This document shows, piece after piece, positions 29,155-33,134 of a stretch of 38,672 nucleotides of DNA. The position numbers were made by a program, and so were the translations under genes. Positions within the stretch are counted from its first letter, which is position 1, and the number at the start of each line of letters is the position of its first letter. Where the stretch lies: NCBI GenBank assembly GCA_009691305.1, contig SICS01000007.1, positions 1 through 38,672 of the forward strand, given 5' to 3'. The stretch comes from Candidatus Peribacteria bacterium (GTDB lineage Bacteria > Patescibacteriota > Gracilibacteria > Peribacterales > Peribacteraceae). The notes under the pieces were generated by a model, which saw nothing but the letters and a program-made list of their open reading frames with translations, was not told where the DNA came from and ran no database searches.

Positions 29155-29415
29155 ATGCCAGTTAACGTCGCAGTCCCCGATATCTACCACGCAATGGAGG
29201 CCGCTGATCAGAAAATTAGGGATACCAACCCAGAACACTCGGCCGAATTTCGAAGCAAAATGCTCGGAGTTCTGTAAACCTCAGAACGTGTGAGAGAGCC
29301 CGATGGCCATGCGGATTTTTTCTCCGCAGAAACCGCTAGAAAAATACTTCAATGCGCAGAAGGCCTTATTCAAGACCTCGGTCTCGATGTTCGTGTTGAG
29401 ATGGAGGAGGCATGA
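29155..29415 (+). pseudogene. Small gene interrupted by an in-frame TAA
   Basis: From ATG 29155 the frame encodes 40 residues (PVNVAVPDIYHAMEAADQKI, AEFRSKMLGVL) to TAA 29275-29277. The same frame then continues with 45 sense codons (ERVREPDGHADFFSAETARK, GLIQDLGLDVRVEMEEA) to TGA 29413-29415. Both halves have coding character and no frameshift is needed. A GTG at 29290 could restart the second half. Best read as one protein of about 86 residues with a nonsense mutation; a pair of tiny coupled genes or a sequencing error are alternatives. Confidence 0.5.
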
Positions 29416-31248: not shown

Positions 31249-31339
31249 GGAGAGATGGCCGAGTGGTCGAAGGCGCGCGACTCGAAATCGCGTAACCCCC
31301 AAAAGGGGTTCGAGGGTTCGAATCCCTCTCTCTCCGCCA
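31249..31339 (+). tRNA. tRNA-Ser (anticodon CGA)
   Basis: The acceptor stem GGAGAGA pairs with TCTCTCC, followed by the discriminator G and encoded CCA (31337-31339). The D-arm region is TGGCCGAGTGGTCGAAGGC. The anticodon stem-loop CGCGA-CTCGAAA-TCGCG gives anticodon CGA. A long variable arm (ACCCCCAAAAGGGGT) is the class II feature of tRNA-Ser, and GGTTCGAATCC forms the T loop. It reads UCG codons. Confidence 0.96.
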
Positions 31340-31667: not shown

Positions 31668-31730
31668 AAGGCTGATTTTCGGGCTTCCACGCCGCAGAGC
31701 ATTGAGAACTGCACGTCTACCAAATTGGCC

Positions 31731-31758
31731 TTGCAGGGGGCATTTTGACCCCTAGAAT
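31731..31758 (+). promoter_or_regulatory. Promoter of the histone gene
   Basis: TTGCAG (31731-31736), 16-nt spacer, TAGAAT (31753-31758). The leader to ATG 31791 is about 27 nt, strongly C/T-rich, and lacks a Shine-Dalgarno sequence. It shares spacing and the TAGAAT box with the promoter at 28670. Confidence 0.6.
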
Positions 31759-31790
31759 CCCCCTGTCCCTATTTCTTACCCCCTTCTCGT

Positions 31791-31961
31791 ATGAGTTACG
31801 TAGTCGCATCCGCGATCAAGGACATGCTCAAGAAGCTCGGCATGATGACCGCCGGCGATTTCCCCGAGGCCGCTTCGGCAGCCATGGAGGATATGTGCAA
31901 GAAGGCAGCCGCTCGCGCCAAGGACAACGGCCGCGTTACGGTCCGCCCCTGCGATCTTTGA
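31791..31961 (+). CDS. Bacterial histone-fold DNA-binding protein (DUF1931-like)
   Basis: A 56-residue protein. The sequence fits one histone fold: helix 1 YVVASAIKDMLKKLGM, loop MTAGDFPE, long helix 2 AASAAMEDMCKKAAARAKDN, then loop 2 and the start of helix 3 GRVTVRPCDL. The last element matches the archaeal histone GRKTIKAEDI pattern, including the Arg-Thr DNA-contact pair and the terminal Asp that pairs with an Arg. It would form dimers and compact or bend DNA. Known bacterial single histones are of similar size, about 60 residues. It has its own promoter, a pyrimidine-rich leader and a strong terminator, as expected of a highly expressed chromatin protein. The assignment is by motif, without a database search. 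Confidence 0.8.
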   Translation: MSYVVASAIKDMLKKLGMMTAGDFPEAASAAMEDMCKKAAARAKDNGRVTVRPCDL

Positions 31962-31988
31962 TCTAGAACAACGTGTGTTTTTGAAAGG

Positions 31989-32011
31989 ACCTTCCGTACG
32001 GAAGGTTTTTT
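31989..32011 (+). terminator. Intrinsic terminator of the histone gene
   Basis: The perfect palindrome ACCTTCCGTACGGAAGGT (31989-32006) ends in a T6 run (32006-32011), 27 nt after the stop. It also lies just past the prfB stop on the other strand and might serve both, but the T-run favours the plus strand. Confidence 0.85.
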
Positions 32012-32023
32012 CAAATGCTGAAA

Positions 32024-33134
32024 TTACGCTCCTGCCTGCCTCTTCAACTCCGCATCAATAAACATCTGCAGATCCCCATCGAGCACTCCCGCCGTGTTGC
32101 TCGTCTCCACATTCGTCCGGAGATCCTTCACCATTTGATACGGGTGCAACACGTAGCTGCGCATTTGTTGTCCGAAGTCCGCACTCTCACTCGCGCCTTT
32201 GAGATCCTTCTTCTGCGCGAGTTCCTCTTCGCGTTTCTTCTCGAGCAGTTTGGCACGGAGGATGTTCATGGCGAGGGCGCGGTTCTGGAGCTGCGAACGT
32301 TCCGTCTGGCAGGCGACGACGATGCCGCTGGGGAGATGGGTGAGGCGGATCGCGGATTCCACTTTGTTCACGTTCTGCCCGCCGGCGCCGCCGCTGCGGT
32401 ACGTGTCGACGCGGAGGTCGTTCAGGTTGATCTCGATCTCCTTGGTTTCGGTGATCTCGGGGAGGACTTCCACAAGGGCGAAGCTGGTCTGGCGGAGGCC
32501 CTTGGCGCCGAAGGGCGAAATGCGGACGAGGCGATGCGTGCCCTTCTCGCACTTCAGGTGCCCGTACGCCATCTCCCCCGTGATGTGGAAGGTGGCCGTC
32601 TTGATCCCCGCCTCCTGCCCATCGGTCTTCTCCAGCAGGTTCGACTTCCATCCCTTCCGTTCGCAGTAGCGCAGGTACATCCGCACGAGCATCGCCGCCC
32701 AGTCCTGGGCTTCGGTGCCGCCCGCGCCACCGCTGATGGTGAGATAGCAATTGCCCGCGTCGAACTCGCCGCCCAGGTAGAGCTGGAGTTCCTGGTCGAC
32801 CCAGCGTTTCCGGAGGGCATCGAATTGCGACTCGAGCTCCGGCAGGTCGGCATCGGTGGAAATGCCCGCGAGCTCGCGGAGTTCACTCAGTTCCTGCGCG
32901 ATGGCCGAGACCGGCTCCCATTGCTTACGGAGCGCTTTAAGCTTGTTAAAGAGGTCCTGTGCCCGTTTCTGGCCTTGCCCTGAGCTTGCCGAAGGGTCAC
33001 TCCAAATCCCGGGGTCCATCGTCTCCCGTTCCAGGTCGGCTATTTTTTTTGGGATTCCTTTGCCGTCAAAGAGAGTCCTTGCCCGTGTTGACGGCCGACT
33101 GCAGCTCGCCGAGTTTTGTGAGGAGTTCGTCCAC
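32024..33134 (-). CDS. prfB: Peptide chain release factor 2 with programmed +1 frameshift
   Basis: RF2 reads UAA and UGA. The main frame carries the GGQ peptidyl-hydrolysis motif in [20 protein letters not shown], and [16 protein letters not shown] upstream. The N-terminal piece starts at GTG 33134 ([20 protein letters not shown]) and ends CTT-TGA-C at 33071-33065. Slipping past the TGA (33068-33066) by one base joins it to [20 protein letters not shown], the usual RF2 continuation. An AAGGA Shine-Dalgarno-like element lies 4 nt before CTT. So the gene autoregulates by RF2 level. The coding joins are complement 33134-33069 and 33067-32024. Codons for [11 protein letters not shown], about residues 43-53, come from a GTCACCCTGAGC-family repeat. 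A TATACT -10 lies at 33163-33158. Confidence 0.95.
32976..33001. repeat. CCCTGAGC palindrome inside prfB
   Basis: GCCCTGAGCTTGCCGAAGGG followed by TCAC is a member of the family also seen at 20528-20558 and 37540-37562. It is in frame and encodes DPSASSGQG after the normal W-x-DP element of RF2. Confidence 0.65.

Follow-up and report, generated by a model that had tools for sequence, protein, structure and literature searches.

The window, a stretch of 38,672 nucleotides, was found to contain a genuine conserved gene for a bacterial histone that has probably been vertically inherited, and its product was best classed as a face-to-face (FtF) alpha3 histone and not as a Bdellovibrio-type dimer. 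The histone belongs to a kind already known; what is new is the lineage of its hosts, in which it occurs consistently. The host genome is that of a Candidatus Peribacteraceae member (Peribacterales, Patescibacteria/CPR; 1.07 Mb, 99% complete), of which the window is contig 27. The open reading frame (ORF) runs from ATG to TGA and encodes a single-domain protein of 56 amino acids (MSYVVASAIKDMLKKLGMMTAGDFPEAASAAMEDMCKKAAARAKDNGRVTVRPCDL) with a net charge of +2 (nine K/R against seven D/E; family median +3). The preliminary description had read the protein as a bacterial histone that stands alone, has a single fold and belongs to a CPR-type cell, and this was borne out by sequence matches to solved histones and by fold comparison. 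The features of the locus are given in Table 1.

Table 1. Features of the histone locus (positions in the window).
Feature	Position	Strand	Remarks
tRNA-Ser (CGA)	31249..31339	+	ARAGORN; upstream neighbour
sigma70-type promoter	31730..31758	+	CTTGCA ... TAGAAT, -10 at 31753-31758
pyrimidine-rich 5' leader, SD-less	31765..31790	+	putative transcription start ~7 nt past -10
histone gene	31791..31961	+	56 aa; phmmer to 9qt0/8fvx/8cmp, AF2 pLDDT 93, Foldseek HLp TM 0.98, order-wide conservation
intrinsic terminator hairpin	31978..32015	.	between histone and convergent prfB; -20.3 kcal/mol, z -5.1
prfB (release factor 2)	32024..33019	-	PCRF + RF-1 domains; convergent neighbour

No match to PF00808 (CBFD_NFYB_HMF) was found anywhere in the window's genome, the control archaea being matched, and an archaeal nucleosomal histone of the PF00808 type was dropped on this ground. 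The score against DUF1931 (PF09123) was sub-threshold (12.5 bits against a cut-off of 21.8) and, together with the single fold, ruled out the identity of a DUF1931 pseudodimer, followed by a likewise sub-threshold match to the NCBIfam model archaea_histone. These negative and sub-threshold Pfam and NCBIfam scans were not counted as evidence of absence, and they would account for the gene having been missed in annotation. The phmmer search against solved structures gave Leptospira HLp (E 3e-5) and Bdellovibrio HBb (E 2e-4) as the two best matches. The preliminary description would have given up the histone reading had profile searches returned no histone-fold hit; this came true for the profile models named above but not for the solved histones and the fold match, and the identity was settled by the phmmer matches to solved bacterial histones together with the fold comparison.

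The AlphaFold2 model of the window histone, built with an alignment of 74 natural sequences, had a pLDDT of 93 and contained helices at residues 6-15, 24-45 and 53-55, so that alpha3 was truncated to three residues within a histone fold and the helix-loop-helix-loop-helix spacing read earlier from the sequence was recovered. In the Foldseek comparison, HLp was found at the top (TM 0.98, 0.5 Å) followed by HTkC (0.92) and HBb (0.91), with a probability of 1.00 and with E-values that failed the 0.001 threshold, as the shortness of the chain would lead one to expect. The model of a natural fused doublet (L128) had a pLDDT of 93, a pTM of 0.84 and loop-loop bridges, and resembled the Methanopyrus doublet histone as well as single-chain H2A-H2B. 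Because this relative was modelled as a handshake, handshake pairing is predicted for the family.

The FtF histones form a two-sided tetramer, held together at the end of alpha2 by one arginine and one asparagine, and contain in addition the RxTxxxxD motif (PMC11390915), and the tetramer residues of HLp are R49, N53 and R55 (PMC12701072). These were found to correspond to R42, N46 and R48 in the window histone, whose FtF signature was R42/N46/R48/T50/D55. The two dyad residues of the FtF profile, R48 and N52, were present as R42 and N46, and the RxTxxxxD motif (R48, T50, D55) and the conserved alpha1 lysine (K10) were present as well; the HBb type is marked by the absence of these R48/N52 dimer-dimer residues, and both were present here. 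The residues N46, R48, T50, D55 and K10 were found to be conserved in 78/78 Peribacterales histone domains, and R42 in 72/78, the other six being N-terminal halves of fused doublets. The window histone agreed with every FtF sequence or fold test that could be made, its tetramer state being a prediction.

The HLp of Leptospira perolatii (PDB 9QT0/9QT1/9QT2; PMC12701072) was found to share with the window protein the fold, the R/N/R residues, the RxTxxxxD motif and most of the DNA-contact positions. The HLp contacts K17, K21, T27, G29, T57 and R59 (PMC12701072) were all kept in the phmmer alignment, as K10, K14, T20, G22, T50 and R52, and the contacts K54 and T56 were replaced by G47 and V49. 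The two proteins differ in that they are ~34% identical, HLp contains an N-terminal extension that has no counterpart in the window protein, HU is retained in Peribacterales but missing from Leptospira, and the main split of the tree separates the two histones. A basic N-terminal tail is usual in the bacterial FtF histones described so far (PMC11390915), and none was found in the window histone. The archaeal FtF histones (HTkC, PDB 9F2C; Haloferax D4GZE0; Diapherotrites L121, L130 and L134) were found to be likewise tailless, with a chain that stops right after the motif aspartate and with identical signature residues, and the Diapherotrites L121 protein was 62% identical to one Peribacterales histone and fell on the Peribacterales side of the tree. 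The window gene differs from these in its bacterial host and bacterial promoter, and the Diapherotrites genes contain GGAGG-type sites whereas the window gene contains an SD-less pyrimidine leader.

A histone match (E<=0.01) was found in 68 of the 74 Peribacterales genomes sampled, which represent one family, in frame, mostly with an identical start and with identities down to ~40%. Among the near-complete genomes 55/57 contained the histone, and the two without a match suggest that it may be non-essential. The usual Peribacterales histone was found to contain MSYVVAS at the N-terminal end and NGRKTVRxxDL at the C-terminal end. In the class outside Peribacterales, two genomes with a match were found among 288 searched, whereas the phylum sample contained 11 further matches in four families, ten of them with the FtF residues; the match in genome G500 was weak and not histone-like. 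Loci L162-L171 were FtF-type histones of three other Patescibacteria families (f34, f41 and f71), most with clear SD sites, and the scan of viral contigs for histone relatives gave none. For the scan of genome contigs, the 19-row alignment was too diverse as a query and a closer set of sequences worked. The prfB gene was found convergent and downstream of the histone in 46/68 loci and nearby in 53/68.

The promoter of the window gene was found to be widely conserved, with an exact TAGAAT/TACAAT ending 28-38 nt before the ATG in 60/68 relatives and a -35-like CTTGCA/CTTGCG in 50/68. No SD-like motif was found upstream of the histone in any of the 68 relatives, and the last 20 bases of the leader contained a mean of 17.4 C/T, position -14 (T in 92%) and positions -11 to -9 (C in ~80%) being the most conserved. 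The other CPR histone genes examined contained AAGGAGGT- or GGGGGT-type sites. The terminator hairpin was found to contain 16 pairs, including the flanking A-U pairs, and a 4-nt loop, and since A- and T-runs flank both sides it may serve the histone as well as prfB; a hairpin followed by a T-run was detected 3' of the histone gene in 52/68 relatives. The pyrimidine-rich leader and the strong terminator, first described from this one sequence, were thereby both confirmed, the leader as an order-wide trait across 68 loci. The near-consensus promoter and the strong terminator point to a message that is monocistronic and probably well expressed.

A chance ORF or an assembly contamination might be suspected from the shortness of the ORF and from Pfam matches that all remain below threshold, but this explanation has practically no probability left and is already refuted. 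Against its closest relatives the gene differed in third codon positions. The substitutions between the window gene and L002 were distributed as 3/3/16 over the codon positions, that is, heaped at third positions, and dN was well below dS (0.055 against 0.59), so that the gene is under purifying selection; the presence of the match throughout the order, these third-position substitutions and the synteny with prfB identify the gene as real and as no contaminant, and promoter and terminator are conserved as well. For the genuine gene, a product acting as an HBb-like dimer histone, with DNA bent by the dimer and with no tetramer, is very unlikely. HBb/Bd0055 of Bdellovibrio (PDB 8CMP, 8FVX) is an alpha3 histone with a truncated third helix and is the second-best solved relative in E-value, at a TM of 0.91; however, it contains S and D at the positions of R42 and N46, the FtF markers, whereas the window histone and its relatives retain both, and HLp is closer by sequence and by structure. 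The Bdellovibrio-type dimers are described as lacking that FtF arginine and asparagine (PMC11390915). The preliminary description had cited Bdellovibrio; among the kinds of histone already known, the face-to-face one, with Leptospira HLp and archaeal HTkC, comes closest.

The explanation that accounts for the whole is that the FtF alpha3 histone acts as a nucleoid-associated protein, forming a tetramer and bending or wrapping DNA beside HU, and this is considered quite likely. A translation start without Shine-Dalgarno sequence, visible in the sequence, would give rise to an expressed protein, and two 56-aa chains would pair as a histone handshake dimer (fold modelled for the window protein, pairing for the fused relative). 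With R42, N46 and R48 as contacts, two dimers may then close into a tetramer by joining at either side, as the residues suggest, and DNA would be carried round the rim via K10 and K14 of alpha1, T20/G22 of loop 1 and T50/R52 of loop 2 and would be bent or wrapped in an HLp-like manner; the tetramer, the DNA wrapping and the abundance and expression of the window histone are putative throughout. An HU/IHF-type protein was found in 55/57 near-complete Peribacterales genomes, and a histone replacing HU, as in Leptospira, was rejected because of this co-occurrence; the histone would act beside HU and not in its place. A narrow role, for example in local regulation or as a partner to HU, and not that of a general chromatin protein, would fit a second bulk packing protein not being strictly needed where HU is nearly always present, and would fit the two near-complete genomes without a detected histone gene. 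It remains an unlikely reading: the window histone was found to contain no extra domain, a high level of expression is suggested by the promoter, by the terminator and by the leader, which is of the same type as that of the HU gene, and in Leptospira the histone of the HLp type is strongly expressed (PMC11390915).

Proteins of ~119 aa with two fused histone folds were found in four Peribacterales-type genomes (G018, G039, G073 and the L122 record, the last being titled Uhrbacteria yet containing the Peribacterales leader), and R42 was replaced by A in the N-terminal half of all four, whereas a separate doublet in G077 retains the arginine. In the model of the Haloferax FtF histone, the partner of this arginine is a C-terminal carboxyl contributed by the dimer facing it (PMC11390915), and the loss of R42 would fit the proposed interface since a fused N-terminal half has no free C-terminus. 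Fused folds also occur in the known doublet histones (Methanopyrus 1F1E; DUF1931 pseudodimers), but the Peribacterales doublets consist of two FtF-type domains nested in the singlet family and are no DUF1931 members, and the window copy is a singlet. With its natural doublets the family presents an instance in which histone genes have fused recently. The natural fused doublets of the collection were L127, L128, L067, L122 and L160, and a UDP-glucose dehydrogenase gene was found to adjoin the doublets of G018, G039 and G073.

The tree, which is limited by its 56 columns and in which the long HBb branch falls among archaeal rows, contained a split with support 95/96 that places Peribacterales and DPANN archaea on one side and HLp, other bacterial FtF histones and other CPR families (L162-L171 of f34, f41 and f71) on the other. 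The simplest reading of this split is at least two separate acquisitions of a histone in CPR; a single clade of Peribacterales histones was not rejected (p-AU 0.217). A single acquisition of the histone before the radiation of Peribacterales is probable, with the FtF histones of DPANN archaea as its source or as relatives of shared origin, and inheritance has probably been vertical since, the direction of transfer being conjectural. Contigs titled Uhrbacteria (L122), Euryarchaeota (L087) and Rokubacteria (L133) were found to hold a Peribacterales-type histone locus or histone, and these titles probably denote mislabelled or mixed bins.

In published surveys, the bacterial FtF histones belong mainly to Spirochaetota, Planctomycetota, Bdellovibrionota and Myxococcota, and bacterial histones are rare and patchy. 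Full-text literature searches on histones with Patescibacteria, candidate phyla radiation or Peregrinibacteria returned no reporting paper, though the supplementary tables of the surveys may already list some CPR members; the publication describing five complete genomes of Peribacteria makes no mention of histones. Peribacterales, an order of ultra-small, reduced CPR cells, would be the third lineage with a histone as a fixed trait, after Bdellovibrionota and Leptospirales, and the transfer of histones between archaea and bacteria becomes testable, with Peribacterales grouping with DPANN and the other CPR families with HLp.

The pyrimidine leader was found not to be specific to the histone, a possibility that was rejected because HU and other genes share it. 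The HU genes of 25 Peribacterales genomes contained a leader of the same type (mean of 17.3/20 pyrimidines; L189, L173-L176 and L191-L210), and in the window's genome similar leaders (L177, L180-L182, L185, L187 and L188) were found before ORFs for type IV pilin-like, SLH-domain, PurA-like and sigma region 4 proteins. Several of the genes sharing the leader, among them those for the SLH proteins, the pilin-like protein and a 21-aa lysine-rich peptide, probably encode abundant proteins.

The 16S rRNA gene of the window's genome is cut by a contig end, and the 16S genes of relatives (L214-L221 and L224-L249) were therefore compared with those of other class members (L250-L274). The CCUCC anti-SD was intact in 3/34 Peribacterales genes against 20/25 of the others and lost in 31/34 (GGAACAUCUCC, GGAACACUUCC, GGAACAUUUCC) against 5/25, the 34 Peribacterales genes containing a GGAACAYYUCC or similar tail. 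Taken with the shared leader, the loss of the anti-SD may suggest SD-independent initiation for abundant proteins, as a lead; the genome-wide SD count, made with crude ORF calling, was too noisy for use. A dual chromatin of archaeal-type FtF histone and HU throughout the order, both probably highly expressed via the conserved pyrimidine leader (~TTTAYTTCYTTYCCCC) with an SD-independent start on anti-SD-eroded ribosomes, is a tentative and rather doubtful extension.

Just past the 16S tail, UUACCAGGGAG or GGGAA was found to be conserved, varying in step with the tail, and CUCC/GGAG or UUCC/GGAA could pair there as a hairpin. A lysine-rich peptide of 21 aa (MVKKKKKATKKKKKSSKKKKR) in the window's genome was also found behind a pyrimidine leader, and a 40-aa ORF (MPVNVAVPDIYHAMEAADQKIRDTNPEHSAEFRSKMLGVL; 29155-29277, + strand) with no Pfam match was found in the window directly after an unbroken run of 22 pyrimidine bases.
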